64,000 nt of DNA from Tardiphaga robiniae. GTDB taxonomy: Bacteria; Pseudomonadota; Alphaproteobacteria; Rhizobiales; Xanthobacteraceae. The stretch spans positions 441,501 to 505,500 of the forward strand of contig NZ_LVYV01000001.1 in the NCBI RefSeq assembly GCF_001618955.1. The letters run 5' to 3'. Below are positions 41,008 through 54,434 of this stretch, piece after piece; positions within the stretch are counted from its first letter, which is position 1; each line of letters begins with the position of its first letter. A model generated the notes under the pieces. The model searched no databases. It had not been told where the DNA came from and saw only the letters and a program-made list of their open reading frames with translations. A program made the position numbers and the translations under genes.

Positions 41008-41125
41008 CCAGCAGTCATATCCCATGCAAGCGCAGGAGCGGCAATTTCTCACCTCTGACGGTTAATCGAACACGCAGAGAACTACCACCGGCATTCCGAC
41101 GCACTCCCTGGACAAAAAACCTCCC

Positions 41126-41761
41126 TCAACGGGAGCCGCGGAGTTGCCAGGTGTCGAAGCTGTCGGGTTTGATCTCGAACCGATCTTGCATCCGTGCATA
41201 CATGTTTCCCGCGATGCGTGCGACCGGAAGATAGTGATCATAGTCCGTACGCAAGGTGACGGGGTCGACAACACCATCGCGAACCTGAATGCCCAGGACC
41301 TCTCCGACCAGTAAGTCGCGCTCTGCGCCAAAGTTCATCATTGTCACTTTTCGGCATTCCAGTGCCGCAGGCGCCTTCGCCAAATGCGGCACCGGCACAT
41401 TGATGCCAGCCGTCATTGGAAGCTGCAGAGCATCCAGTTCGCCGGTGTCCGATGGAAAGCTGATCGAACAATCGACCATATCGTTGGCGAGGGCCTCATC
41501 CACCATATTGATAACAAACAACCCATTGGCGCGTACATTGCGGGTCGTGTCCTTGACCGACAGATCGGGCCTGGCCTGCAGGCCGACCACCACCAGCGGC
41601 GGTTTTTCGGAGAACACATTGAAGAACGAGAACGGCGCTGCATTGACGACGCCGGCATCTGAGATGGTGGTAATCAACGCAATCGGACGCGGCACCACCA
41701 GACCACACAACAACTTGTAACGCTCGGGACCACTGAGCTTCGCAAAGTCAAAATGAACCAT
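41126..41761 (-). CDS. Flavin reductase family protein
   Basis: A 211-residue FMN-binding split-barrel protein (flavin reductase-like, DIM6/NTAB type). Typical segments: VVPRPIALITTISDAGVVNAAPFSFFN, KPPLVVVGLQ, KDTTRNVRANGLFVIN. GAGG stands 11 nt before ATG 41761. It is the last gene of the 41126-53457 operon, 49 bp after the ACMSD-like gene. Flavin reductases usually feed reduced flavin to a monooxygenase; no monooxygenase is in this operon, so it may act alone or serve one elsewhere. Confidence 0.85.
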   Translation of the reverse strand: MVHFDFAKLSGPERYKLLCGLVVPRPIALITTISDAGVVNAAPFSFFNVFSEKPPLVVVGLQARPDLSVKDTTRNVRANGLFVINMVDEALANDMVDCSISFPSDTGELDALQLPMTAGINVPVPHLAKAPAALECRKVTMMNFGAERDLLVGEVLGIQVRDGVVDPVTLRTDYDHYLPVARIAGNMYARMQDRFEIKPDSFDTWQLRGSR

Positions 41762-41810
41762 CGCCAATCTTGCCTCATCCGTTGCCGCCTTGCCGCAACG
41801 AGGCAGGAGC

Positions 41811-42800
41811 TTATCCGATCTTGAACAGCCGGCTCGCATTGCCGAACAGGACTTTCCGACGATCAGTGTCCGATAGCTTGGCCTTGTTGACCAGCCCCAC
41901 CGGATCGGGGTCCCCCATGTCGAACGGGTAGTCCGAGCCCATCATGACGCGATCGAGGCCCACCGTCTTGACAAGATTGTCGATCAGCTCCGCAGAGAAC
42001 ACGCAGGTGTCAAACCAGAGCCGCTTAAGATAGGTCGACGGTGCATCTGCCGTGAGCCGGCGTACTTCTGGACGCACCTTCCAGGCGTGATCCAGTCGGG
42101 CTGCGTAGAACGGGTAGAAGCCACCGCCGTGGGCGATAATCACGTCGAGATCCGGATGCCGGTCAAGAATGCCGCCCATGATGAAATGCGAGATCGCAAT
42201 AGTCTCCTCGATAGGCTGACCGACGCTGTTGACCATGAAGAAATCGCCGAGCCGCTGGCCATGGGAGAAGCCGAGGGGATGCACGAACAGCGGTATGCGC
42301 AGTTTGGCAAGCCGCGCATAAAGTGGATCGAACAAGGCATGGGACAGTTCGAGGTTTTCGACGCGGGTGTCGATCTGGAAGCCGCGCAGGCCGAGTTGCT
42401 CGACTGCATGAACCGCCTCGTCCACCGCACGCCCGGGGAACCGCATCGGCAGCGTACCCATCCCGGCGAAATGTGCAGTATCCTGCGCCACGAGCGCGGC
42501 AATGTCTTCGTTCTGCACGCGCGACAGCGCACATTGCAAATCTTCGTCGGCCCAGTAGTTCTGTTGCGCCGGTGCCGGCGCGATCACCTGAAAGTCGACG
42601 CCCATCTTCGCCATCATCTCGCGGCGCTTCGCGATGTCGAGCATCAGGCCCGGGAGCAGCTTGCCTCGCTCTGCATCAGTTTCGCGGCTCGCCGGCGACA
42701 TGTCGCGCCGATAAGGATTGTCCATCGGATCGTAATGTCCGGCCACCAGCGGCTCGACGCGCTTGCTGAGGGCATGGGTGTGCATATCGACGATGCGCAT
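41811..42800 (-). CDS. ACMSD-like amidohydrolase/decarboxylase
   Basis: A 329-residue Amidohydro_2 protein of the aminocarboxymuconate-semialdehyde decarboxylase group. Metal ligands are visible in DMHTH (His7, His9), FVHPLGF, IIAHGGGFYPF and MGSDYPFD. Relatives decarboxylate aromatic or muconate-type acids, or hydrolyse lactones. It is 15 bp downstream of the amidase. In this operon a late decarboxylation or hydrolysis of a ring-opened product is inferred. Confidence 0.85.
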   Translation of the reverse strand: MRIVDMHTHALSKRVEPLVAGHYDPMDNPYRRDMSPASRETDAERGKLLPGLMLDIAKRREMMAKMGVDFQVIAPAPAQQNYWADEDLQCALSRVQNEDIAALVAQDTAHFAGMGTLPMRFPGRAVDEAVHAVEQLGLRGFQIDTRVENLELSHALFDPLYARLAKLRIPLFVHPLGFSHGQRLGDFFMVNSVGQPIEETIAISHFIMGGILDRHPDLDVIIAHGGGFYPFYAARLDHAWKVRPEVRRLTADAPSTYLKRLWFDTCVFSAELIDNLVKTVGLDRVMMGSDYPFDMGDPDPVGLVNKAKLSDTDRRKVLFGNASRLFKIG

Positions 42801-42815
42801 TCGGAATCTCTTTTC

Positions 42816-44201
42816 CTAGTTCAGTTCGGCGGCATCGGGGACGCGATGATGCCAGTCGGTCACACCTTGATAAGCATGAGCCGCGCGCAGGATATCGGCT
42901 TCGGCATAGGGACGGCCGACCAGTTGGAAGGCGACCGGAAGGCCAGCATTGTCGAAGCCGCAGGGAACCGAGGCCCCGGGGAGACCGAGATAGTTGATAC
43001 CGCGACTGCAGTGGGCAAGTTGACCGATGATACGGGCGACCGCCTCGGGGCCGCCTTCAGTTGTCGCCTCGATCGTCGGCACCGGAACTGCGATCGCCGG
43101 CAGCAATGCCAGGTCGGCCGCTCCCATGCAGCAGGCAATCCATTGCTGCGTGATCTGCGTGCGCAGCGCGAGCGCCTCGACGTAACGTGTCGCGGGAAAG
43201 AACAGGCCGGGCTCGATCCGAGCGCGGATCTGGCCGGCATAATCCTGCGGCCGTTCGATCAGCCAGCGGCGGTGAATCGTCGCCGCCTCGACGGTCATGA
43301 CGAGGAGCATCAATGCATTGACAACGGCCATATCCGGCGGTGCGGTCTCGATGATGCTGGCGCCGAGACCGCGCAACTCCGCCACCGCCTGTTCCAGCCG
43401 CACGACGATGATGGGATGCAGCAAATCGCGATAGTAGCCGCCGGGAACGGCGATGGTCATGCCGCCGATACTGGCACCGATTGCTGCCTCGTAATCGCGG
43501 TCGGCAATCACCGACAGCAACCGCGCCGCGTCGCGCGCGGTGCGCGTCAGCGGGCCGGCGCAATCCAGCGAGGCCGACAGCGGCATCACGCCGTCGGTCG
43601 GCACCAGGCCCCAGGTTGGTTTCAAACCAACCAGCCCGCACATCGCACCGGGATGGCGCAGCGAGCCGCCGGTATCGGTACCGAGCGAGCCGGTCACGAG
43701 GCGCGCGGCAACGGCAACACCGGAGCCCGACGAGGACCCGCCGGGCACATAGGCTGGGTTCCACGGATTGAGCGCATGGCCGTAATGTTCGTTGTAGCCG
43801 GTCGGGCTCAAGGCAAATTCAGCAAGTTGCAGCCGGCCGAGATCGAGCGCACCGGCAGCGTCGAGCCGATTGATGACTGTCGCAGTGACATCGGGACGAA
43901 AGTCGGCGCGAATTTTCGATCCGCCGCTGGAGAGATCGCCGGCGCGATAGAACAGATCTTTGTGCGCCAGCGGCACGCCATGCAGCGGCGGCAGGAGCGC
44001 GCCGCTCGCGCGCAACTTGTCGGCCGCTTCGGCCGCTCGCAGCGCGCGGGGCCCATCGAGCCGCACCACGGCATTAAGCTTGCGGCCAATAAGATCGAGA
44101 CGCTCCAGCGCGACCGCCGTCGCTTTCACCGACGAGATCTCCCCGTGGGCGATGGCGTCCGACAGTTCGCAGAGATCGAGGGCGGCGATGGCGTTTTGCA
44201 T
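42816..44201 (-). CDS. Amidase signature enzyme (AtzE/AtzF/GatA-like)
   Basis: A 461-residue amidase-signature hydrolase. The Ser-cis-Ser-Lys triad is visible: Lys81 in LAHKDLF, the GGSSSGSGVAVAA block (Ser156-158), and nucleophile Ser180 in GTDTGGSLRHP. It shares its first base with the stop of the preceding 64-residue AtzG/GatC-like gene (TGATG), so the two are coupled and probably form a complex like AtzE-AtzG. Relatives hydrolyse carboxybiuret, allophanate or aryl amides. Substrate here unknown. Confidence 0.87.
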   Translation of the reverse strand: MQNAIAALDLCELSDAIAHGEISSVKATAVALERLDLIGRKLNAVVRLDGPRALRAAEAADKLRASGALLPPLHGVPLAHKDLFYRAGDLSSGGSKIRADFRPDVTATVINRLDAAGALDLGRLQLAEFALSPTGYNEHYGHALNPWNPAYVPGGSSSGSGVAVAARLVTGSLGTDTGGSLRHPGAMCGLVGLKPTWGLVPTDGVMPLSASLDCAGPLTRTARDAARLLSVIADRDYEAAIGASIGGMTIAVPGGYYRDLLHPIIVVRLEQAVAELRGLGASIIETAPPDMAVVNALMLLVMTVEAATIHRRWLIERPQDYAGQIRARIEPGLFFPATRYVEALALRTQITQQWIACCMGAADLALLPAIAVPVPTIEATTEGGPEAVARIIGQLAHCSRGINYLGLPGASVPCGFDNAGLPVAFQLVGRPYAEADILRAAHAYQGVTDWHHRVPDAAELN

Positions 44202-44395
44202 CAGCGCTTGTCCACGGCAGCAAGCGAGGCCCGATAGGCGTAAGGCGAGGAATCGAACGGCATCACGCGGATGGCTTCCGCAGCGATGCGGGCATTGATA
44301 TCCGCAACCATTCCCGCCATCCGCGGCGTACGCTCGGCGGCCCCAGGCGTATTGTTCAACTCCGCAGCAATTTGGCGCAGCAAATTTTCGCTCAT
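44201..44395 (-). CDS. Small AtzG/GatC-like amidase partner
   Basis: A 64-residue protein: a helical N-terminus, a central helix (RTPRMAGMVADINARIAAEA) and a tail with MPFDSSPYAYRASLAA. This helix-then-acidic-tail plan is that of AtzG-like (DUF4089) and GatC-type subunits, which wrap around amidase-signature enzymes. Start ATG 44395, 7 nt after the LivF stop; the stop overlaps the amidase start. The similarity is from pattern only; the position next to the amidase makes it convincing. Confidence 0.72.
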   Translation of the reverse strand: MSENLLRQIAAELNNTPGAAERTPRMAGMVADINARIAAEAIRVMPFDSSPYAYRASLAAVDKR

Positions 44396-44402
44396 ATCGT
44401 CC

Positions 44403-45107
44403 TCAATGCACGCCGAGGCGCTGGAATAGCACATCAGTCTGCTCATTCATTTCCTGCGACGTGCCGTGATGCACGATCTGCCCGGTCTCCATAATGTAGA
44501 CGCGATCGGCGACGGCCAGCGCGCTATAGAGATTCTGCTCGACCAGCAGGACCGACAGCCCTTCCTTCCTGAGATCGAGAATGATGCTTTCGAGATGCTG
44601 CACCATCACCGGCGCGAGGCCTTCCGACGGCTCGTCCATCAGAATCAATTCGGGATCGATCATCAGCGCACGGCCGACCGCCAGCATGCCACGCTCACCG
44701 CCCGACAACTGGCCGCCGCGGTGATAGCGACGCTCGGCAAGCCGCGGGAAAATGCCGAATATGCGATCGAGCGTCCAGCCATCCTTGGCGCGCGCGCTCT
44801 TCAGCATGGTCAGATGCTCCGTCACCGTCAGCGAGGGAAACAGCCGGCGGCCCTGTGGCACAATCGCAATCTTGCGATTGGCGATATCATGGGGACGCAG
44901 ACCAATAAGACTATCGCTGCGCCAGGTAATCGTGCCCGAGCGCACCTGCGGCGGTGTCAGACCCATGATCGAACGAATGAACGTCGTCTTGCCCATGCCA
45001 TTGCGGCCGAGCAGCGCCACGATCTCGCCAGGACGCACCTCAAGCGAGGCGCCGCGCACCACGATCGCGTCGCCGTAACCGCTGTGCAGATCCTTGACCT
45101 CAAGCAT
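44403..45107 (-). CDS. livF: Branched-chain-type ABC transporter ATPase LivF
   Basis: A 234-residue ABC ATPase of the LivF type. It starts MLEVKDLHSGYGDAIVV, with Walker A LLGRNGMGKTT, QGRRLFPSLTVTEHL, the signature LSGGERGMLAVGRALM and Walker B LILMDEPSEGLAP. Start ATG 45107 overlaps the LivG stop by 8 nt; the frame is open further upstream but that part is not protein-like. Works with LivG, LivM, LivH and the binding protein to import the operon's substrate. Confidence 0.92.
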   Translation of the reverse strand: MLEVKDLHSGYGDAIVVRGASLEVRPGEIVALLGRNGMGKTTFIRSIMGLTPPQVRSGTITWRSDSLIGLRPHDIANRKIAIVPQGRRLFPSLTVTEHLTMLKSARAKDGWTLDRIFGIFPRLAERRYHRGGQLSGGERGMLAVGRALMIDPELILMDEPSEGLAPVMVQHLESIILDLRKEGLSVLLVEQNLYSALAVADRVYIMETGQIVHHGTSQEMNEQTDVLFQRLGVH

Positions 45108-45855
45108 GGCGCGGCTTCCCGAGATAGACTTCCTGGACCTTGGCGTTGCGGCGAATGCCTTCCGGCGGCTCCTCCACCAGCACACGGCCCTCAAACATGC
45201 AGGTGACGTAGTCAACCAGACCGAGCGCCAGATCCATGTCGTGTTCGATCAGGATCACGGTAATTGCCGGATCGAGCGAGCGGATCACCTCGGCAATCAT
45301 CGAGCGCTCCGACGGCGACAGGCCGGCCGCGGGCTCATCCAGTAGCAGCATGGTCGGCGTCGTCACCAGCGCAATCGCAATTTCAAGCTGCCGCTGCTCG
45401 CCATAGGACATTTCCTTGACGATGGTGTCGGCGCGCTCGGCGATCCGCGCAGCCTTTAGCGCATCCACGATACGCGCGGCCTCACCCTCGTCCGCATCTG
45501 GCGAGCCGAACAGCGAAAACTTCTTCGGCTTCAATCCACGCAGCGCCAGCATCATGTTGTCTTGCACGCTCAGCGTGGGGAACAGGTTGGTGATCTGGAA
45601 GGTGCGCGAGATGCCGAGCTGCGCACGCCGGTGTGACGGCAGTCTGGACACGTCATGTCCATTGAACCTGATCTTGCCGGAGGTCGGCGGATGCGCGCCG
45701 GCGATGGCATTGAACAACGTGGTCTTGCCGGCGCCATTGGGGCCGATGATGGCGCGGCGTTGGCCCCGCGGCACAATCAGGCTGACGCCATCGACCGCCC
45801 GCAAGGCATCGAAGGCCACTACCACATCTGTCAGCGTCAGGATCGGTTCGGACAC
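45100..45855 (-). CDS. livG: Branched-chain-type ABC transporter ATPase LivG
   Basis: A 251-residue ABC ATPase of the LivG type: Walker A IGPNGAGKTTLFNAIAG, LGISRTFQITNLFPTLSVQDNMMLAL, signature MSYGEQRQLEIAIAL and Walker B LLLDEPAAGLSPSE. The start is GTG 45855 because GGGAATT lies about 8 nt upstream; GTG 45888 is an alternative. The 3' end overlaps livF. Confidence 0.92.
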   Translation of the reverse strand: MSEPILTLTDVVVAFDALRAVDGVSLIVPRGQRRAIIGPNGAGKTTLFNAIAGAHPPTSGKIRFNGHDVSRLPSHRRAQLGISRTFQITNLFPTLSVQDNMMLALRGLKPKKFSLFGSPDADEGEAARIVDALKAARIAERADTIVKEMSYGEQRQLEIAIALVTTPTMLLLDEPAAGLSPSERSMIAEVIRSLDPAITVILIEHDMDLALGLVDYVTCMFEGRVLVEEPPEGIRRNAKVQEVYLGKPRHA

Positions 45856-45917
45856 GAATAATTCCCAGTGAACGAGACGCGGCGACACGGCCGCGCCTCG
45901 ATGTCAGCAATATTGAA

Positions 45918-47177
45918 TCAGGTCTTCTTGATGCCCTGGAAGGTCCGCGAGTAAGGCGGCTGCTTCAGATAGGTCGCCGGATCGTACTTCCAGAATTGCG
46001 AGACATTCGGATAGGTCTCGATCGGCACGTTCCAGTATTTGCCATCGGCGCGCTTGACGACCTTGCGAATGTAGACGTCGTAGATCGGGTTGCCGTAGTC
46101 GTCGAACTTAACGATCTTGCCGAGTGGCGAATTGTCGAGCTCGGTCTTCAGTACCGTATCGATAAAGGTTTCGCGGTCCTCGACCTTGCCGCCCATCTTC
46201 TTCAGCGCGGCATCGATCCACATCATGCCGGAATACATCGAGAAACCGTAGAGCGACGGGATCTTGCCGTACTTCGCCTCATAATCCTTCTCGAACTTCG
46301 CCGTGGTCGGGACGTCCGAACCTTCGGCGAAATGCGCCGCTGCGATGATGCCTTCGCATTCGGGGCCCATGGTGCGGATCACCGACTGGTCAGTGCCGTT
46401 CATCGCCATCAACAGCGGCGTCTTTTCCTTCAGGCCGAAGGACGCGTATTGCTGGATCAAACGCGTCGAATCAGCACCGGTTTCCATCGCGAAGATGGCA
46501 TCGACCTTGAGATCGGCGAGCTGACCGAGATAGGGGCTGAAGTCGGCGGTGTTCAGCGGATGCCAGAACTGCTGCACGATCTGCCCGCCCCCTTCGGTGA
46601 ACACCTGGGCGAGACCGCCGCACTGTTCGTGGCCGAAGGTGTAATCCTGGCTGATGGTGGCGATCTTCTTGTAACCCTGCTTCAGGGCCCAATCACCGAA
46701 CGGATGGGTGAAGGCGCTGGCTGAATAGCCGGCGACGCGGATTACGTTCTTGATGCGGGCGCGCTGGGTGAGATCGTCAGCCGCGATAATCGGAATGAAG
46801 TAGGGCGTTCCGGTGCCCTTGACGTAGTTGGCGACAGCAAGGCCGGTATTGGCGAGCAGGTTGCCGATCAGCATGTGGCAATTGCCCTGCTCGACCAGAC
46901 GGCGCGCTTTCTGCAAAGCGGTGTCGGGATTCGACGCATCGTCCTCGATCACCAGCTCGACCTTGCGACCGCCCATCTCGTTCTTCACCTGATCGAGATA
47001 GAACTGCACGCCCTCGACCATTTCCTTGCCGCCCGAAGCGACAACGCCGGTCAGCGGCGCCAACAGACCGATCTTGATCGGGCTTGCCTGAGCCTGAGCC
47101 GAGCGCCACGGAGCGGCGCCAACGCCCGCGGCAGCGACTGCTGCCGTCGTGTTCTTGAGAAATTGCCTGCGATCCAT
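45918..47177 (-). CDS. livK: ABC-type substrate-binding protein (LivK-like)
   Basis: A 419-residue periplasmic binding protein of the type I (LivJ/K, Peripla_BP_6) family with a twin-arginine-like leader, MDRRQFLKNTTAAVAAAG, and cleavage likely after AQA. The fold markers IKIGLLAPLTGVVASGGKEMVEG and GTGTPYFIPIIAADD are clear. It supplies specificity for the importer of this operon. The family includes binders of amides, urea and aromatic acids, so a branched-chain amino acid ligand is not implied. Tat export suggests folding before export. Confidence 0.9.
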   Translation of the reverse strand: MDRRQFLKNTTAAVAAAGVGAAPWRSAQAQASPIKIGLLAPLTGVVASGGKEMVEGVQFYLDQVKNEMGGRKVELVIEDDASNPDTALQKARRLVEQGNCHMLIGNLLANTGLAVANYVKGTGTPYFIPIIAADDLTQRARIKNVIRVAGYSASAFTHPFGDWALKQGYKKIATISQDYTFGHEQCGGLAQVFTEGGGQIVQQFWHPLNTADFSPYLGQLADLKVDAIFAMETGADSTRLIQQYASFGLKEKTPLLMAMNGTDQSVIRTMGPECEGIIAAAHFAEGSDVPTTAKFEKDYEAKYGKIPSLYGFSMYSGMMWIDAALKKMGGKVEDRETFIDTVLKTELDNSPLGKIVKFDDYGNPIYDVYIRKVVKRADGKYWNVPIETYPNVSQFWKYDPATYLKQPPYSRTFQGIKKT

Positions 47178-47222
47178 CTCAAAGTCCTTTCGTGAGCAAC
47201 CCGATTGAAACGTGAAACCGAC

Positions 47223-48185
47223 TTATCGCACCTTGCGCGAGGTGATCGCGCGCAGCTTGCCTATGATGCCCTCGGGGGCGAAGATCATGATCAGAACGAA
47301 TGTGATGCCAAGCACCATCAGCCAACGCTCCGTGTAGGAGCTGACGATGTTCTCCAGCACGATGATCGCCGCTGCCCCGACAAAGGCGCCGAACAGCGTG
47401 CCGACACCGCCGGCGATCATCATCAACACACCTTCCACCGATTGCGCGAGCGCGACGGTCGAAGGGCTGACGAAATTGTTGAACATCGCGTAGAGGCCCC
47501 CGGCGATACCGGCGAAGATGCCTGACACCGTGAAACCGATGAACAGATGCAGCGGCACATTGTAGCCGAGGCTACGCATGCGGCTTTCGCTGTCTCGGAT
47601 GCCGCGCAGCGTCAGGCCGAAGGGCGAACGCACGAACCGCCACATGGCAAAGGACACGACAACTGCGCCGGCCAGCACCGCCCAATAGAACGCGCTGTGG
47701 CTCATCAGGGCTGCCGGCCGCACATCGGCGCGCATGCCGTTTTCGCCCCCGGTGACCTGCGTCCAGCGCAAGCAGACGCCCCACACGATCATGCCGAGCG
47801 CCAGCGTCAGCAGCGGGAAGTAGACGCCGGAGGTGCGAACTGCGAGCAGCGCAAATACCGAGGCCACCGCGGTGGCCGCCAGCACACCAAGCGCGAAGCC
47901 CGCCCAGGGCGACAGACCGGCCTGGCCGGTCGCATAAACGACGACATAGGTCGAGACACCGAAGATGGCACCATGCCCGAGGGAAGTCCGGCCGGCAAAA
48001 CCGGCGAGAATGTCGATCGACATGGCAAGGACTCCGAAGATCAACACTTCGGTGGCGAGGCCGACCTGATAGCTCGACAGCACCATCGGCAGGCAGGCAG
48101 CGACGATCACCACCAGCGCGGCGATGACGAGCGCACGGCTGGTCATGCCGGCGAGAACTGACGTTTTGGATACGGGCTGCGTCAT
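47223..48185 (-). CDS. livM: Branched-chain-type ABC permease LivM
   Basis: A 320-residue inner-membrane permease of the LivM type with about nine hydrophobic helices and the typical AGFAGRTSLGHGAIFGVSTYV and VEGVLMMIAGGVGTLFGAFVGAA segments. The N-terminal ATGA overlaps the LivH stop by 4 nt. Forms the channel with LivH. Confidence 0.92.
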   Translation of the reverse strand: MTQPVSKTSVLAGMTSRALVIAALVVIVAACLPMVLSSYQVGLATEVLIFGVLAMSIDILAGFAGRTSLGHGAIFGVSTYVVVYATGQAGLSPWAGFALGVLAATAVASVFALLAVRTSGVYFPLLTLALGMIVWGVCLRWTQVTGGENGMRADVRPAALMSHSAFYWAVLAGAVVVSFAMWRFVRSPFGLTLRGIRDSESRMRSLGYNVPLHLFIGFTVSGIFAGIAGGLYAMFNNFVSPSTVALAQSVEGVLMMIAGGVGTLFGAFVGAAAIIVLENIVSSYTERWLMVLGITFVLIMIFAPEGIIGKLRAITSRKVR

Positions 48186-49033
48186 GTGGCACGTCCGAAC
48201 AGGCCGAGCGGACGGAATGCGAGCAACACCGCCATCGGGCCGAAGATCACGAAATAAGCGAGTTCGGGGAACATCACCTGGCCGAGCGTATTCAGAAGCC
48301 CGACCAGCAGGCTACCGACACCGACGCCGACGAGACTGCCACGCCCGCCAATGATGACGACGGCGAGACTGAAGGTGAGGATTTCCGCGTCCGCCGACGG
48401 ATAGAGCGACAGGAACGCACCTCCCATCAGGCCGCCAAGGCCGGCCAGTGCCGAGCCGAACAGGAAGGTGAAGAGGAAGACGCGGCGGATATTGACGCCG
48501 GACGCTTCGACCATCTCGGCATCGTCCACGCCAGCGCGGATCAGCGCGCCGAGCCTTGTATGATTGAGCAGCACCCACAGGCCGATGAAGACGAAGATGC
48601 CCATCCCCAGCACAAACAACCGGTAGATCGGATAAAAGGTGCCGAACACCCGCGTGCCGCCGCGCAACATCTCCGGGATCGGCACCGTGAAGCTGTCGCC
48701 GCCCCAGATCACCAGCGCGAGATCGTTGAGGAAAAAGGCGACGCCGAGCGTCAGCAGCACCTGCCGCAGCTCGTTGCCGCGCACGAAGCGCAGCAATCCC
48801 TGATCGAGCACGAAGCCGATGGCCGCGATCGCCGCCATGGCGCCGATACCGCCGAGCACAAAGCTGCCGGTCTTCACCGCAACGCTATAGCCGATATAGC
48901 CGCCGAACAGATACAGCGCGCCATGCGCGAGATTGACGATGCGCAGCAGGCCGAAGATCAGCGTGAAGCCGCTTGCCACGACGAACAGCAACGCGGCGAA
49001 AGTCAGGCCGTTGAGGAGTTGAAAGAGACTCAT
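48182..49033 (-). CDS. livH: Branched-chain-type ABC permease LivH
   Basis: A 283-residue permease of the LivH type: LNGLTFAALLFVVASGFTLIFG at the N-terminus, RIVNLAHGALYLFGGYIGY, LGGLMGGAFLSLYP and IIGGRGSLVGVGVGSLLVG. It follows the first PuuE-like gene by 19 bp and overlaps livM. Confidence 0.92.
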   Translation of the reverse strand: MSLFQLLNGLTFAALLFVVASGFTLIFGLLRIVNLAHGALYLFGGYIGYSVAVKTGSFVLGGIGAMAAIAAIGFVLDQGLLRFVRGNELRQVLLTLGVAFFLNDLALVIWGGDSFTVPIPEMLRGGTRVFGTFYPIYRLFVLGMGIFVFIGLWVLLNHTRLGALIRAGVDDAEMVEASGVNIRRVFLFTFLFGSALAGLGGLMGGAFLSLYPSADAEILTFSLAVVIIGGRGSLVGVGVGSLLVGLLNTLGQVMFPELAYFVIFGPMAVLLAFRPLGLFGRAT

Positions 49034-49052
49034 GCCCTGCTGCTTGCCTGAT

Positions 49053-49937
49053 CTATGCTTCTGGCGCTTTCGGTCCGACCGAAAGATACCAATCGAGAAT
49101 CTGTTCGCCGGTCATGAAAGCCACGTCGGATTTCTTCTGGATGGTCTCGAAGATTCGGCGGAAATGCTTGAGGCGATGCGGCGCGCCCATGATGTAGGGA
49201 TGCACAACCAATGCCATGACACGGGCCGAATTCTCGGAATCCTCGTAAATCTGCTCGAACTGGTCGACGGCCCGGTCGCAATATTCCGACGCCTTGTGAT
49301 GCTGGATCAGCATCATCGCGACGTCATTGCATTCCTGCGTATAGGGCACGTTGACGATCGGCATCGTCGTGGTCTTGAGCCACACCGGCTGATCGTCGAG
49401 CACCCAGTCGGCGACGTAGTCATAGCCTTCCTGTTTCAGCAGATCCGGCGTTTCCCAGGTCTCGGTCAGACCGGGCCCGAGCCAGCCGCGCGGCCGCTTG
49501 CCGGTGGCCTTCTCGATCACGTCGGCAGTCTTGCGGATATCCTCGCGTTCGTTCTCAACCTTCTGCATATTGCGCTGGGTGAAACCATGACCCATGAATT
49601 CCCAGTTGCGCGCCTTGGCTGCCTCGACGATGGGCGGGTAAGCAGCGATCGCCGAACCATTGATCGCCAGCGCGGCGGGGAGCTTGTAGTCGTCGAACAC
49701 TTTCAGCATGCGCCAGAAGCCGACGCGATTGCCGTATTCGTGCCAGGCCCAGTTCGGAACGTCTGGCGACGGCGAGCCGCCGGCCGGCGGTGTCAGCACC
49801 GTACGCGGCATCGGCTGCTTGGCGTCCCATTCCTCGACATTGACGATGATCCACACTGCCATGCGCTTGCCATTCGGCAGCTTCAGCGGTGGACGAGCGT
49901 CAATCGGCGAGTAGGAAATGCGTTCGGTCGGCAACAT
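49053..49937 (-). CDS. PuuE-like (allantoinase-type) polysaccharide-deacetylase-fold hydrolase
   Basis: A 294-residue protein of the polysaccharide deacetylase superfamily in the PuuE/allantoinase branch. The segment NWAWHEYGNRVGFWRMLKVFD parallels YEYGSRAGVWRLLKLF of PuuE; GKRPRGWLGPGLTETWETPDLL and ALVVHPYIMGAPHRL follow. The classical TFDDG metal motif is replaced by NVEEWD, as in PuuE-type ring hydrolases. It is a clear paralogue of the gene at 50644-51528. Likely a cyclic amide or ureide hydrolase; the substrate is inferred only. Confidence 0.8.
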   Translation of the reverse strand: MLPTERISYSPIDARPPLKLPNGKRMAVWIIVNVEEWDAKQPMPRTVLTPPAGGSPSPDVPNWAWHEYGNRVGFWRMLKVFDDYKLPAALAINGSAIAAYPPIVEAAKARNWEFMGHGFTQRNMQKVENEREDIRKTADVIEKATGKRPRGWLGPGLTETWETPDLLKQEGYDYVADWVLDDQPVWLKTTTMPIVNVPYTQECNDVAMMLIQHHKASEYCDRAVDQFEQIYEDSENSARVMALVVHPYIMGAPHRLKHFRRIFETIQKKSDVAFMTGEQILDWYLSVGPKAPEA

Positions 49938-49939
49938 GA

Positions 49940-50641
49940 TCAGATCTCCGGCTCAACGATGGTAATGCCGAGCGACGGCAGGCCTTCGATCCGCGCGTCG
50001 ATAACGTCGCCCGGAACGACGGGACCCACGCCGGCAGGCGTGCCCGTATAGATGAGATCGCCCGGCTCGAGCTTCATCTGCTTCGACAGCTGCGCCACGA
50101 TCTCCGGCACGCTCCAGATCATCTGGCCGATATCGCCGCGCTGCTTCTCGACGCCGTTCACCGACAGCGTGATCGCGCAATTGTTGAAATGCCGGGCATC
50201 ACGTGCCGGCGCAATTTCGCCGCAAGGCGCGGACGCGTCGAAGCTTTTGCCCATTTCCCAAGGCAGTCGCATATCGCGGGCATCGCGCTGGCGGTCGCGA
50301 CGGGTGAGATCGATGCCAACGGCATAACCCCAGATGTGATCGAGCGCATCCTCCACCGCGATATCGCGGCCGCCGCGTCCGATGGCCAGCACCAGCTCAA
50401 CCTCGAACTGGAAGTCCTCGGTGAAAGCCGGATAAGGCACGCGCGCGCCGTCCGGCACCACGCTGTCGCGCGGCTTCTGGAAGAAGAACGGCGGATCGCG
50501 CTCGTCGGCTTCCTTCATCTCGCGGATGTGGTCGAGATAGTTGCGCCCCACGCAATAAACGCGGCGTACAGGGAAAAAACCGCCCCCCACGACCGGCACG
50601 CCGGTGACGGGAATTGCTGGCAGCATCTGCTGGGACGTCAC
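49940..50641 (-). CDS. Fumarylacetoacetate hydrolase family protein
   Basis: A 233-residue FAH-family metal-dependent enzyme: YCVGRNYLDHIREM, EDFQFEVELVLAIGRGG (metal-ligand Glu pair), AVGIDLTRRDRQRDARD, LEPGDLIYTGTPAGVGPV. Relatives hydrolyse or decarboxylate beta-dicarbonyl and acylpyruvate compounds. The start is uncertain: GTG 50641 is chosen (AGGTGG 10 nt upstream), GTG 50647 and ATG 50626 are possible. It sits between the two PuuE-like genes, 2 nt before the next start. Confidence 0.83.
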   Translation of the reverse strand: MTSQQMLPAIPVTGVPVVGGGFFPVRRVYCVGRNYLDHIREMKEADERDPPFFFQKPRDSVVPDGARVPYPAFTEDFQFEVELVLAIGRGGRDIAVEDALDHIWGYAVGIDLTRRDRQRDARDMRLPWEMGKSFDASAPCGEIAPARDARHFNNCAITLSVNGVEKQRGDIGQMIWSVPEIVAQLSKQMKLEPGDLIYTGTPAGVGPVVPGDVIDARIEGLPSLGITIVEPEI

Positions 50642-50643
50642 AC

Positions 50644-51528
50644 TCACTTCGCCACCTGGGTATTGTGCCAATCGAGGATCTGGGCGCCATTCCAATGCAC
50701 CACGCCTTCGAACTGGTTCACATAGTCATAGATCGCTTCGAGATATTTGATGCGGAACGGCTGACCCGAAATATACGGATGGATCGCGATCGACATGATC
50801 TTCGGCCGCTCGGCGCTTTCAGCATAGAGGCGATCAAACTGATCCTTGGCACGGTTCAGGAGCTGCGTGCTCTCATGATGTTGCACCATCATCATCGGGA
50901 TGTCGTTCATCTCCACCGTGTAAGGCAGCGTTGTGAGCGGCCCCTTCTCGGTACGGATCACCGTCGGTTCGTCGTCATAGACCCAGTCACCGATATATTT
51001 CACGCCGGCTTCAGCGAGGAATTCCGGGGTCTCCAGCGTCTGCGTAAGACCCGGCCCGAGCCAGCCCACCGGGCGCTTGCCGGTGAAGTTCTCGATCACA
51101 TCCATCGAGCGGTTGATCATCGCTTTCTGGTCGGCCTCCTTGTGGATGGGCCCCTGCTCATAGGCATGGCCCATGAACTCCCAGCCGGCGTCCTTCGCCT
51201 GCTGAGCCACGCGTGGATAATCCTCGCAGACGCGCGCATTGATCGACAGCGTCGGCTTGATGCCGAGCTTCTTGTAGAGATCGAAGAAACGCCAGACACC
51301 GACACGCATGCCGTATTCGTGCCAGCCCCAATTGGCGACATCGGGCAGCAGCGGAATGCCGGTCGGCGCCGGCAGCACCTGACGCGCCATCGGCTTGGCA
51401 ATATCCCAGACCTCGAGATTGACGATGGTCCAGACGATCATGCGGGCATTGCCCGGCAGCTTCAGTTTGGGACGATCGACGATGGCGGAATAATCGCAAC
51501 GCTCGCGCGGCTGCATGGGACCGGTCAT
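50644..51528 (-). CDS. PuuE-like hydrolase, second copy
   Basis: A 294-residue paralogue of the 49053-49937 product. It shares WLGPGLTQTLETPEFLAEAG, WEFMGHAYEQ, VHPY and AISIHPYISGQ-like blocks and the same NLEVWD replacement of the CE4 metal motif. WGWHEYGMRVGVWRFFDLYKK matches the PuuE pattern. Start ATG 51528 with GAAGGG about 9 nt upstream. Two ring-opening hydrolases in one operon may act on successive rings or intermediates, or as a hetero-oligomer. Confidence 0.8.
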   Translation of the reverse strand: MTGPMQPRERCDYSAIVDRPKLKLPGNARMIVWTIVNLEVWDIAKPMARQVLPAPTGIPLLPDVANWGWHEYGMRVGVWRFFDLYKKLGIKPTLSINARVCEDYPRVAQQAKDAGWEFMGHAYEQGPIHKEADQKAMINRSMDVIENFTGKRPVGWLGPGLTQTLETPEFLAEAGVKYIGDWVYDDEPTVIRTEKGPLTTLPYTVEMNDIPMMMVQHHESTQLLNRAKDQFDRLYAESAERPKIMSIAIHPYISGQPFRIKYLEAIYDYVNQFEGVVHWNGAQILDWHNTQVAK

Positions 51529-51565
51529 GGCTGGATGCCCTTCGAAAGTGGGGGATTGTAGGAGA

Positions 51566-52213
51566 TCATGCGGCGCGTCCTGCGCCCTTGAGGCCATCGA
51601 GCTGCATCACCGCATCGGTATCCATCACGAAACCGAAGGCGGTGCGGATGCAGGCGAGGCCTGCGGCATGCAACTCTGGCCCGTCCATGCTGTCGACGCA
51701 GTCCTCGGCGACGATCACCGAATAATCCCGCACATTGGCAGCCGTCGTCGTCGCCAATACGCAGGAGTTAGTGTTCACGCCGGTGATGAGCAGTGTATTG
51801 ACGCCGTGCGAACGCAACACGAAATCGAGATCGGTGCCCAAGAAGCAATCGTAGCGCTTCTTGGTGTTGACGATGAAGTCGCTGGGGTCCAGCAGCTCCG
51901 GCATCACGGTGCAGCCGGGGCCGCCCATGATATTGTGCCGCATCACATTCTTGCGCGTTGCTTTTGGATCCTCGGCGCGGGTCCGCCAGAACGGGTTGGC
52001 GCGGATTTCGGCCTCGTCGCGATAGGACGTGACCTGGTGGATCACGGGAATGCCGACACTACGGCACCAGTCGAACAGCCGCTTATTGGCAGCGATCACC
52101 GTCTTCGCGACATCCGGCGTGGTCGGCATGGTCGCCACCGACATGTCCAGATGGCCGCGATGCAGGTCGATCGCGACAACGGCAGCCTTGATCTGATCGA
52201 CACCAAAATTCAT
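51566..52213 (-). CDS. Isochorismatase-like cysteine hydrolase
   Basis: A 215-residue isochorismatase-fold amidase. The Asp (AIDLHRGHL), Lys (NTKKRYDCF) and Cys (GVNTNSCVLATT) catalytic residues are visible. Relatives include carbamoylsarcosine, ureidoacrylate, maleamate and biuret hydrolases, all releasing ammonia from an acyclic amide. Start ATG 52213; the frame is open upstream but that part overlaps the preceding gene. Second gene of the operon. Confidence 0.85.
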   Translation of the reverse strand: MNFGVDQIKAAVVAIDLHRGHLDMSVATMPTTPDVAKTVIAANKRLFDWCRSVGIPVIHQVTSYRDEAEIRANPFWRTRAEDPKATRKNVMRHNIMGGPGCTVMPELLDPSDFIVNTKKRYDCFLGTDLDFVLRSHGVNTLLITGVNTNSCVLATTTAANVRDYSVIVAEDCVDSMDGPELHAAGLACIRTAFGFVMDTDAVMQLDGLKGAGRAA

Positions 52214-52215
52214 GA

Positions 52216-53457
52216 TCACACCAGCGGGTTGAACGAAGTTTTCAGCAGAGTGCGCTGATCGATCTTGAATTTGTCGGCGAGCCAGTCGGCCAGCACTTCC
52301 TGGCCAATGGTGGGATTGTCGTGCTGGCAATGTTCGGCGCCGGTCTCGTCCGGCTCAAGCACGCGCAATGTCGCATCAACACCATTGGCAATCGCATGGT
52401 CATAGGTCGAGCGCGCCGCGGTGACCGTGAGCACGTCGTGGCCGCCATGCAGCACCAGATAGGGGCATTTCATATGTTCGAGATGGCCCTTCAGCGTAAA
52501 GGGCTTCATCAGCTCATGAGCCTCCTTCATGGTCTTGGCGCCAAATACCCAGCGGATATGCATCGCCAGACCGAAGTCGTCGCCCTTCTGGCCCCACATG
52601 TCATGCACCGACCAGACAGCCCCGTGCGAGATCACCGCCGCGAGGCGATGCTCGTAACAGCCGGCGCGCGCGGCGTAGTAACCGCCCATGCTGGAGCCGC
52701 AGACCGCGATGCGCGAGCTATCGACATCGGCGCGCTTTTCGAGCCAGTCGATACATTTGCCGACCGGCACTTCCGTATCGGCGCGGGTTGCAAGTCCGTG
52801 GCGGCGCAAGGTACCGCCCTGCCCGGGCAGATCGACCATCAGCACCGAGATGCCGCGCTGCAGGCAACCATGGGCCTGCATGAACCACATCTCGTCCTTG
52901 ATGGAGTCGAGACCGCCCATGCAGATCAGCACCGGCAGCTTGTCTCCCGGAAATGGCGCACGGATGAAGTAGCCGCAGATCGGCTTGCCCGTCTCATAGG
53001 GGATCTCAACCACTTCGCCGGGCGGATTGAGATAGGAAATGAACTTATGCGAGCAGGCCTCCATCTTCTCGAAGGTCGGCAGCCGCCGCGGGTCGGTCGG
53101 CTCGAGATGGAATTCTGCCTGGCGGTAGTAGTCGGCGGCCCGCAGGAAGCAGTTCATCGCCGTGCGGATGTGGCCGAGCTTTTCTTCGGAAAGGCCGCGC
53201 TGCCAGTTGGCATCCGCGATCACCATCCACTCTTTATGCCAGCTTTCGAGGTCGCCCGGGATCATCCGCGAACCGGCCAGCATCACCTCGGACACGCTGC
53301 CGCCGCCCTCCTGGGTCTCACCGAGACCGCGGCGGAATTGATAGGCAAGCCAGGGATGCTCGGGCCAGTGATGCCAGCCAAACGGCTCATAATGCGGGGT
53401 GCGATCCGCCGTGATCTCCTCGATGGCGTTTTCGCCGATCAACTTCCCTGCCGCCAT
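52216..53457 (-). CDS. Alpha/beta hydrolase (FrsA / pseudooxynicotine-hydrolase-like)
   Basis: A 413-residue serine hydrolase. An N-terminal helical cap (about 1-130) precedes the alpha/beta core with VLICMGGLDSIKDEMWF, the nucleophile elbow GSSMGGYYAAR, LHGGHDVLT and a C-terminal His in AEHCQHDN. The cap-plus-core layout resembles 2,6-dihydroxypseudooxynicotine hydrolase, a C-C bond hydrolase, and FrsA-type enzymes. Start ATG 53457 with AGGCGG 10 nt upstream. First gene of the operon, divergent from the GntR regulator. Confidence 0.82.
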   Translation of the reverse strand: MAAGKLIGENAIEEITADRTPHYEPFGWHHWPEHPWLAYQFRRGLGETQEGGGSVSEVMLAGSRMIPGDLESWHKEWMVIADANWQRGLSEEKLGHIRTAMNCFLRAADYYRQAEFHLEPTDPRRLPTFEKMEACSHKFISYLNPPGEVVEIPYETGKPICGYFIRAPFPGDKLPVLICMGGLDSIKDEMWFMQAHGCLQRGISVLMVDLPGQGGTLRRHGLATRADTEVPVGKCIDWLEKRADVDSSRIAVCGSSMGGYYAARAGCYEHRLAAVISHGAVWSVHDMWGQKGDDFGLAMHIRWVFGAKTMKEAHELMKPFTLKGHLEHMKCPYLVLHGGHDVLTVTAARSTYDHAIANGVDATLRVLEPDETGAEHCQHDNPTIGQEVLADWLADKFKIDQRTLLKTSFNPLV

Positions 53458-53684
53458 GAGACGCGTACCGCCTGCTTCTTGTGAACGTGACCGCATCATT
53501 GCGGGTTCGGGTCACGAGTCAATCCGAATTACATACACTTTTTCCGATGCTCATCATTTCCGCGAACTGCCTCGCCTTTATGCGCGATATTTATGCAGCT
53601 AAACCGTGTTTTTTGGTATGCTGAGTAGTAAAGACCCGCCACACTCGGATTTAATTGTATTCACTTTGCTGCGGAGCACCACCG
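53458..53684. promoter_or_regulatory. Divergent promoter region with dyads
   Basis: 227 bp between the operon and the GntR gene. A dyad GTGACC...GGTCAC (53487-53515) encloses CCGC-ATCATT-GCGG. FCD-type GntR proteins bind short dyads and commonly act on the divergent operon; this assignment is inferred and the exact operator is not resolved. No coding frame seen. Confidence 0.4.
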
Positions 53685-54434
53685 ATGCCCGACTCATCCC
53701 TCTCGCCGCTGCCTGAAGCTACTGGCCCTGGCCGCGTCGCCAACCGGTCGCTGTCGGTGACGGATCAGATTCGCGACGCGATTCTGGATGGCACGGTCAG
53801 CGCAGGCGAACGGATCAACGAAGTTCGTTTCAGCAAGACGCTGGAGGTCTCGCGGACCCCCGTCCGGGCCGCCTTGCAGGCACTGGCCGGCGAAGGGCTG
53901 CTCGACTACGCCCCCAATCGCGGCTTTACCGTTCGGGAATTCCCGCTCTCCGCCATCGTCGATGCTTATGAAATTCGCGCATCGCTGGAAGGCGTGGCCG
54001 CACGCTTCGCCGCCGAACGTGGACTGAGCGCCGAGGAGCGCGCCATCATCGAGGAAAGCCTTGTCGCCGGCGATAAACTGCTGGCGCGCGGTGAGTTTGC
54101 GGAAGGCGATCTCACCATCTATCGCGGCATCAATGGCGACTTCCACGACACCCTGCTGGGCGCCGCCCGTAACCGCATGCTGGCGGAGATGATCCGGATC
54201 TGCCACCACGTGCCGATGTCATCGAGCCGCAACATCGTCGCCTTCGAGCATCGCGACGTGCGCCGGCGTCATGATGATCACCACCGGATCTACGACGCCA
54301 TTATGGCCCGCGAGCCCTGGCGCGCGGAGGTACTGATGCGCGAACACGTCTCCGGCGTGAAATCCTCGCTGGTCAAATCGCTGATCGAGCGCGGCGAGCA
54401 GGCCGATATCGTCCATGGTTCGGCGGCGGGATAG
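53685..54434 (+). CDS. GntR/FCD family transcriptional regulator
   Basis: A 249-residue FadR-subfamily GntR regulator. The winged HTH (residues 20-90) contains LSVTDQIRDAILDGTVSAGERI and RTPVRAALQALAGEGLL; the C-terminal FCD domain has DAYEIRASLEGVAARFAAERG and a metal-ligand Asp/His set (NGDFHDTLLGAA, EHRDVRRRHDDHH). Start ATG 53685 with GGAG 9 nt upstream. It is divergent from the 14-gene operon and is its likely controller, sensing a small carboxylate-like intermediate. Confidence 0.9.
   Translation: MPDSSLSPLPEATGPGRVANRSLSVTDQIRDAILDGTVSAGERINEVRFSKTLEVSRTPVRAALQALAGEGLLDYAPNRGFTVREFPLSAIVDAYEIRASLEGVAARFAAERGLSAEERAIIEESLVAGDKLLARGEFAEGDLTIYRGINGDFHDTLLGAARNRMLAEMIRICHHVPMSSSRNIVAFEHRDVRRRHDDHHRIYDAIMAREPWRAEVLMREHVSGVKSSLVKSLIERGEQADIVHGSAAG

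Follow-up and report, generated by a model that had tools for sequence, protein, structure and literature searches.

The genome of Tardiphaga robiniae (6.36 Mb), a soil bacterium related to Bradyrhizobium, carries an operon of 14 collinear genes on the minus strand (41126-53457 of the window, the whole stretch of 64,000 nucleotides analyzed) that would enable the import of a small N-heterocycle and its breakdown by acyl removal, hydrolytic ring opening, amide hydrolysis and cleavage to pyruvate. A probability of about 45% is assigned to this reading. In order of transcription, the genes code for an alpha/beta hydrolase (ABH), an isochorismatase-fold amidase, a PuuE-fold hydrolase (PuE1), an FAH-family enzyme (FAH), a second PuuE-fold hydrolase (PuE2), the Liv-type proteins LivH, LivM, LivK, LivG and LivF, a 64-residue protein, an amidase, an ACMSD-like enzyme and a flavin reductase-like protein, with a spacing that never exceeds 62 bp. 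The sequence-only reading, an earlier interpretation of the same DNA, had described 14 tightly spaced one-strand genes in this order beside a divergent GntR/FCD gene. The arrangement is confirmed and recurs in other genomes, in at least 20 of 248 from the family and at 15 of 80 PuE1 loci in named genomes. The FAH-family, ACMSD-like and isochorismatase-fold enzymes and the complete Liv-type importer named in that reading are likewise borne out, the enzymes by Pfam and structure matches and intact catalytic residues, the importer by the presence of two permeases, two ATPases and a binding protein.

Conservation and Distribution

ABH was searched in 248 genomes of the family, 54 of which (own included) match at E 1e-60. 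There are about 74 ABH matches in the family, and 39 besides the window's own locus were fetched with flanks; the operon, whole or partial and with PuE1, occurs in at least 20 of the 248 genomes (19 and the own one), a figure that is thus a lower bound. In loci L050 and L058, weaker homologues of ABH and PuE1 are paired. A scan of named genomes with PuE1, overlapping the family set, covered 80 loci out of 89 relatives. In 17 of these loci PuE1 forms a contiguous group with three or more partner families; two of the 17 (L121 and L123) have only distant Liv genes. The 15 that are left include Tardiphaga, Bradyrhizobium (e.g., B. ivorense), Acetobacteraceae, and metagenome-assembled genomes (MAGs) of Rhodospirillales and Hyphomicrobiales. 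The remaining 63 loci have fewer than three contiguous partners, some of them lying at contig ends, including L117 with three operon genes. The closest named relative is the operon of T. robiniae LMG 26467, with PuE1 98% identical, while a Burkholderiales MAG (L115) carries the operon from ABH to the amidase. Operon counts, like those of the FAH-PuE2 module described below, rest on tblastn. The gene set is not a product of chance, for its order is shared by at least 20 of the 248 family genomes and extends to further families and classes; the 14 genes are a real conserved unit, a recurrent catabolic operon of soil and root-associated bacteria.

Outside the family the operon is rare. A class-wide search detected PuE1 at E 1e-70 in 10 of 289 genomes, own included. 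The ten class loci (L084-L093, from nine other genomes) contain a PuuE-like gene with weak partners at most (amidase 45% in L085, 30% in L090) and no operon. Of the 398 genomes of the phylum sample, two have PuE2 at E 1e-120, the own one and a congener (G026). Members of the PuuE-fold clade also stand beside a divergent Liv importer in Rokubacteria MAGs.

Pairwise identities of PuE1, calculated over siblings that are not independent, correlate with those of FAH, PuE2, the five Liv genes, the amidase and the regulator with r 0.90-0.94, and track less closely with those of the ACMSD-like enzyme (0.85), the isochorismatase (0.76), ABH (0.75) and the small protein (0.68). PuE1 and the Liv importer are what stays constant in the operon form: L105 comprises only PuE1, PuE2 and Liv, and L119, from an Oxalobacteraceae MAG, comprises PuE1, Liv and the amidase. 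In L111 an HpcH/HpaI aldolase occupies the place of the isochorismatase, and a similar protein was recognized by eye in L042. A variant cluster, L176 (1162-8845), combines homologues of ABH (67%), the isochorismatase (75%) and PuE1 (53%) with HpaB-type, DHDPS-family and RutD-like proteins. The NCBIfam scores of the HpaB-type (274.8 vs. 480.2) and RutD-like (177.6 vs. 238.5) proteins are below cut-off; this cluster is perhaps an oxidative version of the pathway.

FAH and the Plasmid-Borne FAH-PuE2 Module

FAH (49940..50641; Pfam PF01557, 2e-62), an acylpyruvase-type protein, resembles fumarylpyruvate hydrolase. Its nearest structures are 6j5y, an FAA hydrolase family protein (8.4e-71), and 4maq, a putative fumarylpyruvate hydrolase (2.6e-68). 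Among homologues with at least 45% identity and 0.8-1.3 of the query length, to which all residue counts given here refer, the metal-binding acids Glu98 and Glu100 are present in 24/24 sequences and Asp129 in 23/24. No NCBIfam equivalog cut-off is reached, the best score being 132.5 vs. 201. The next gene encodes PuE2 (49053..49937), which matches the structure 3cl6 with an E value of 4.2e-25.

Orthologues of PuE2 (67-75%) are located on eight plasmids of Variovorax, Cupriavidus, Streptomyces and Arthrobacter. In all six regions opened, out of the eight plasmids with PuE2 at 60-80%, FAH (56-64%) precedes PuE2. The two genes belong to a five-gene cluster that also encodes an MFS transporter, a TauE/SafE protein and an Amidohydro_1 enzyme (L072 9271-14422, L073 3873-8918, L183, L184, L185, and L186), arranged in one order in Betaproteobacteria and in another in Actinobacteria. 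For the plasmid clusters, the TauE/SafE gene may point to a substrate that contains sulfur or a sulfonate group. Altogether 13 plasmid regions were opened, four of them without gene annotation, and the complete operon is present in none of the 13. In the four regions found via ABH, this gene is single or doubled with a second copy.

The Amidohydro_1 enzyme of L073 has atrazine chlorohydrolase (3.1e-35) and unnamed amidohydrolases as its nearest solved relatives, with 8-oxoguanine deaminase and triazine hydrolase further off; its best NCBIfam model, an uncharacterized subfamily, gives 351 vs. a cut-off of 391. Deamination and dehalogenation of N-heterocycles are reactions of known members of this amidohydrolase superfamily. 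The case for a ring substrate is strengthened by the position of the FAH-PuE2 pair beside an amidohydrolase of the triazine hydrolase/deaminase type, and this association is the best hint that a heterocycle is what PuE2 opens, with FAH acting on the product. The plasmid clusters also show that such a step does not require ABH, PuE1 or either amidase.

A distant pair of FAH (38%) and PuuE-like (27%) proteins is encoded elsewhere in the same genome (L179 4281-7148; C1 near 370-373 kb), adjoining a GntR gene; a tripartite-transporter binding protein was recognized there by eye.

The First Enzyme, a Putative C-C Hydrolase

The first gene encodes ABH (52216..53457), the alpha/beta hydrolase that the sequence-only reading had recognized as such, missing its kinship to 2,6-dihydroxypseudooxynicotine hydrolase. 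The protein carries an N-terminal helical cap and aligns with the structure of that enzyme (2jbw) over residues 72-411, covering cap and core (phmmer, E 1.5e-24). The triad Ser270, Asp355 and His390 (numbering of the open reading frame (ORF) 52216-53499) is invariant in 45/45 sequences, and His393 is present in 43/45. ABH thus resembles a C-C hydrolase, and cleavage of an aryl ketone C-C bond is predicted. The likeness to the Arthrobacter nicotine pathway comprises the cap/core homology and the catalytic Ser-Asp-His; ABH is, however, a distant relative, and no further nicotine-pathway enzyme was recognized among the 14 genes.

A paralogue of ABH (35%) is encoded in the same genome (L062 10716-19900; C1 near 564-574 kb), together with a Rieske protein, a second Liv importer and molybdenum hydroxylase subunits, one of which is a fusion of 2Fe-2S and CoxG domains. 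Molybdenum hydroxylases are a class of enzymes hydroxylating N-heteroaromatics, and this company of the paralogue suggests N-heteroaromatics as a wider theme.

ABH is also present in contexts different from the operon (L041, L047). In L040, L041 and L047/L180 its neighbors are a NitT-type importer (partly by eye), an FmdA-type acetamidase/formamidase (Pfam on L041) and a PuuE-like protein that is more distantly related, and a cupin gene occurs in the ABH loci L047, L180 and L181 (partly by eye). In L180 (10880-16000) and L181 (1-4993), ABH (82-84%) adjoins a PuuE-like protein (38%), the FmdA-type amidase, the NitT-type importer and the cupin; here the same C-C hydrolase has different partners. 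Pairs of ABH homologues (63-68%) flank a BtrH_N-like protein (a weak match, tested in L048) in L048 (9279-15816) and L051 (5218-11689), with a NitT-type importer recognized by eye.

Amidases and the Ureide Alternative

The isochorismatase-fold amidase (51566..52213; PF00857, 6.7e-33) is similar to biuret hydrolase and RutB, matching the biuret hydrolase structure 6xjm with an E value of 1e-14, and its Asp/Lys/Cys residues are invariant in 22/22 sequences. Identity with either enzyme was rejected, as the scores of 74.4 vs. 370 bits (biuret hydrolase) and 64.4 vs. 377.95 bits (RutB) are below the cut-offs. The second amidase (42816..44201; PF01425, 4.7e-87) belongs to the amidase-signature family, with residues Lys81, Ser156, Ser157 and Ser180 invariant in 17/17 sequences, and matches the biuret hydrolase structure 6c62. 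Its identification as AtzE was likewise discarded (NF006631, 254.6 vs. 461; TIGR02715, 242.7 vs. 425.75).

Immediately upstream of the amidase lies the gene for the 64-residue protein (44201..44395), with predicted helices at residues 2-13, 18-43 and 52-62. It precedes the amidase in Tardiphaga- and Bradyrhizobium-type loci, and a diverged form is present in L042, L044, L045, L046 and L111. Of the earlier description of an AtzG-like protein paired with an amidase, the amidase is confirmed. The small protein has neither a Pfam match up to E 5 (its L046 homologue has one weak, probably spurious match) nor a fold match in a Foldseek search that returned only two chains. Its AtzG/GatC-like character, suggested by its place before the amidase, size and predicted helices, is therefore not established. 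Across about 43000-44500, where the small protein and the amidase are encoded, the strain is 74-80% identical in nucleotides to its four nearest relatives, vs. 83-100% on either side, and the amidase is 82% identical to that of L027, whereas those of L027 and L029 share 95%. The sequences indicate that the two genes are a foreign, replaced allele, as if by recombination. Since both changed together, a functional pairing of the two proteins fits.

The two amidases bring up an alternative in which the substrate is a ureide-type ring, such as a hydantoin, a barbiturate or a uracil derivative, opened by the PuuE-like enzymes to a ureido product that the isochorismatase- and biuret-type amidases hydrolyze. 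Biuret amidohydrolase and RutB are the top NCBIfam matches of the isochorismatase-like protein, both amidases match biuret hydrolase structures, and the flavin reductase encoded in the operon belongs to the same Pfam family as RutF. The plasmid-borne deaminase-type amidohydrolase next to FAH and PuE2 would also suit a pyrimidine- or triazine-like ring. In L091 (7373-10432), a possible ureide or hydantoin cluster, a PuuE-like protein adjoins an isochorismatase and a TIGR01879 carbamoylase (390 vs. 204 bits). All biuret and RutB equivalog scores of the operon are, however, far under the cut-offs, none of the ten proteins scanned reaches a carbamoylase/allophanate hydrolase cut-off (amidase, 157.5 vs. 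511), and it is not evident what the C-C hydrolase, the acylpyruvase and the ACMSD-like enzyme would do in a simple ureide pathway. A ureide substrate is judged unlikely, although it is a serious candidate.

Importer and Tail Enzymes

The importer comprises the LivH-type (48182..49033; PF02653, 1.3e-33) and LivM-type (47223..48185; PF02653, 2.2e-35) permeases, the LivG-type (45100..45888; PF00005, 4.7e-34) and LivF-type (44403..45107; PF00005, 6.9e-27) ATPases and the LivK-type binding protein (45918..47177; PF13458, 3.3e-79), and is thus complete for a Liv-type ABC system. LivK carries a twin-arginine signal (TIGR01409), and its nearest solved chains are 4zpj, 4ey3 and 4evq.

Downstream of the amidase, the ACMSD-like amidohydrolase/decarboxylase (41811..42800; PF04909, 1.8e-46) matches the ACMSD structure 4igm with an E value of 2.7e-48. 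Its metal-site His/Asp residues are invariant in 14/14 sequences, and activity is predicted; no NCBIfam model matches at E 0.01. The last gene encodes the flavin reductase-like protein (41126..41761; PF01613, 1.1e-20), which resembles NbaA, a 2-nitrobenzoate nitroreductase (4z85, 2.3e-38).

These tail enzymes could be explained by two modules joined by chance or convenience, the core from ABH to LivF serving one compound and the tail of amidase, ACMSD-like and NbaA-like proteins serving another, for example an aromatic amide or a nitroaromatic acid. NbaA and ACMSD act in one pathway in 2-nitrobenzoate degradation. The tail is the most variable part of the operon, since the group includes the flavin reductase in 3 and the ACMSD-like enzyme in 9 of the 80 named loci; in this strain the amidase and small protein belong to the replaced allele described above, and the plasmid FAH-PuE2 pair occurs without the tail. 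On the other side, amidase identities follow those of PuE1 (r 0.94), L119 combines the amidase with the minimal core, and shuffled sequences contain promoter-like matches just as often. A division into two modules is rather improbable on this evidence.

PuE1 and PuE2, a Separate Group of PuuE-Fold Enzymes

PuE1 (50644..51528) and PuE2 share 45% identity. The predicted model of PuE1, with low confidence at residues 1-25 and 74-88, has the PuuE fold. Metal-dependent CE4 deacetylases and HpPgdA-type imidases carry a second metal histidine in the motif H-x3-H. This histidine is absent from PuE1 and PuE2, as judged against the motif. The second metal position is occupied by Gln in 97/97 PuE1 and 25/25 PuE2 sequences, the window included, by Asn in more distant PuuE-like proteins (L041/L047, 30%), and by Trp in 3cl6 and in the true PuuE of the genome. 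The PuuE allantoinase thus shares with the pair its fold (PuE1 model) and the lack of the classical second metal histidine, and two reports describe metal-free action of PuuE on a small cyclic imide (PMC3084791, PMC10967932). The sequence-only reading had termed PuE1 and PuE2 PuuE-like hydrolases, with PuuE as an allantoin-opening enzyme; the likeness stands, while the sequences place the pair in a separate group that is not allantoinases. They differ from PuuE in their Gln in place of Trp, in their location apart from purine genes, and in scores of 112.7 (PuE1) and 132.9 bits (PuE2) with the allantoinase model TIGR03212, far under its cut-off of 424.6. Together they define a large clade of PuuE-fold enzymes annotated so far as polysaccharide deacetylases.

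Deacylation of acyclic N-acyl or formyl compounds, involving no ring at all, would agree with the wealth of deacetylases in the wider fold family and with partner enzymes for which acyclic amides and keto acids are conceivable substrates. The finding of the FAH-PuE2 module weakens this explanation and strengthens that of a heterocycle opened by hydrolysis, so that a substrate without a ring appears quite improbable. Salvage of the purine product allantoin by duplicated allantoinases, which the PuuE homology of both proteins might suggest, was rejected in view of their sub-cut-off TIGR03212 scores, the genuine puuE elsewhere in the genome (529.7 bits; its neighbor looks by eye like a fusion of OHCU decarboxylase and HIUase) and the lack of any other recognized purine-catabolic enzyme among the 14 genes.

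Another PuuE-like protein of the same genome (L178 4134-6223; C34) scores 398.9 vs. the allantoinase cut-off of 424.6; its neighbors are an FAD monooxygenase and what looks by eye like a NitT-type importer.

Proposed Pathway and Related Systems

Gene content and order, conservation, protein families and folds, catalytic residues and sites are observed features of the operon. The pathway outlined here assigns a role to every core gene; its substrate class, order of steps, repression and every reaction are predictions. The catabolic operon would be induced by its substrate, a small, probably carboxylated or hydroxylated N-heterocycle imported by the Liv-type ABC system. ABH may strip the acyl side chain by C-C hydrolysis of the retro-Claisen type, like its relative acting on 2,6-dihydroxypseudooxynicotine. 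The deacylated ring would be a cyclic imide or lactam in one tautomer, and PuE1 and PuE2 could hydrolyze its C-N bonds, producing half-amides. Ammonia would be released from these by the isochorismatase-fold enzyme and by the amidase, the latter probably partnered by the small protein. FAH, the companion of PuE2, could then cleave the opened 2,4-dioxo acid to pyruvate and an acid. Decarboxylation or hydrolysis of an intermediate is the putative function of the ACMSD-like enzyme, and the NbaA-like flavoprotein may reduce an intermediate or serve substrate variants.

The sequence-only reading did not recognize the gene set as a described pathway, and literature searches, with subscription papers largely beyond reach, revealed no described pathway with this gene set; the available parts of PMC13207237 and PMC4070871 contain nothing linkable to the operon. 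It is tentatively suggested, as a possibility that we hold to be clearly short of even, that an acylated N-heterocycle is degraded by an undescribed route consisting essentially of hydrolyses. An apparently metal-free clade of PuuE-fold enzymes with the signature H-x3-Q would then supply a pair of cyclic imidases or lactamases that act once a C-C hydrolase has taken off the side chain, PuE2-FAH would be a mobile ring-opening module of Proteobacteria and Actinobacteria, and the clade would represent a new ring-opening family. What the analysis adds to the earlier description is the identity of the C-C hydrolase, the exclusion of allantoinase, the Gln-signature clade, the operator-like pair, the FAH-PuE2 module and the patchy distribution. 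The binding protein, the linked regulator with candidate sites and the FAH-PuE2 module make the substrate directly testable, and its identity would reveal a nitrogen source used in soil and put a name to a family of ring-opening hydrolases.

In Aspergillus the cyclic imidase HxnM and then the amidase-signature enzyme HxnN free nitrogen from a piperidinedione (PMC9304392), and HxnN belongs to the family of the operon's amidase (PMC8478523). The operon and the nicotinate pathway of Aspergillus nidulans are thus alike in a CE4-fold ring opener followed by an ammonia-freeing amidase-signature enzyme (PMC9304392). HxnM, however, is modeled closest to HpPgdA, a protein that is able to bind metal, whereas PuE1 and PuE2 are nearer to PuuE by sequence, and PuE1 also by model. 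The HxnM/HxnN system does not include an importer, C-C hydrolases or an ACMSD-like enzyme.

The cyanuric acid operon atzDGEHF (PMC6219798) is likewise a nitrogen-scavenging operon with a small protein followed by a GatA/AtzE-family amidase. The amidase of T. robiniae, however, scores under the AtzE models, its small protein has no recognizable AtzG match, no allophanate hydrolase reaches cut-off, and no AtzD- or AtzH-type protein was recognized among the 14 genes. With the Rut pyrimidine pathway the operon has in common the isochorismatase-fold amidase and the flavin reductase family, and the variant locus L176 adds the RutD-like hydrolase; it differs in the low RutB score (64 vs. 378), and the 14 genes contain no RutA-type oxygenase family.

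Regulator and Gene Boundaries

The regulator gene (plus strand, 53655..54434 for the ORF as listed; PF07729 and PF00392) encodes a GntR/FCD protein, whose orthologue is divergent from the operon in 18 of the 19 family loci mapped. Two operator-like sites lie in between: AATTACATACACTT (53527..53540), near the operon promoter, agrees with the consensus AAGTGTATACACTT at 11/14 positions and is conserved in place, and AATTGTATTCACTT (53653..53666), just before the regulator gene, agrees at 12/14. Paired sites of the TGTATACA type are conserved, and the GntR/FCD protein may repress the operon via these two sites. A best site of at least 11/14 is present in 25 of 27 distinct intergenic sequences (merged from 32, with near-identical siblings remaining) vs. 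0.3% of shuffles, a descriptive figure, as the consensus was derived after viewing the intergenic sequences. L042 (10) and L111 (9) are below this value, yet their core reads TGTATACA. A regulon search in the own genome gave one stray match and nothing more. Because the listed TTG start at 53655 overlaps the site at 53653-53666, the true start of the regulator gene is probably the ATG at 53685, 30 bp downstream.

A promoter-like match precedes ABH (53522-53495), and a terminator-like hairpin (41121..41135, minus strand) lies on the last stop codon. Across the region, promoter-like matches number 5 vs. 4.0 in shuffles and terminator-like ones 10 vs. 9.1; since these counts equal those in shuffles, both candidates are supported by position only.

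Mechanical ORF calls over-extended several operon genes at the 5' end, and likely starts were chosen by eye from overlaps and alignments: ABH at 53457, as in the sequence-only reading, the isochorismatase at 52213, PuE1 at 51528, LivF at 45107, the small protein at 44395 and the flavin reductase at 41761. Two candidate starts each are retained for FAH (GTG at 50641, ATG at 50626) and LivG (45888, 45855). With these likely starts, distances between genes range from an overlap of about 8 bp to a gap of 62 bp, and several genes overlap slightly.

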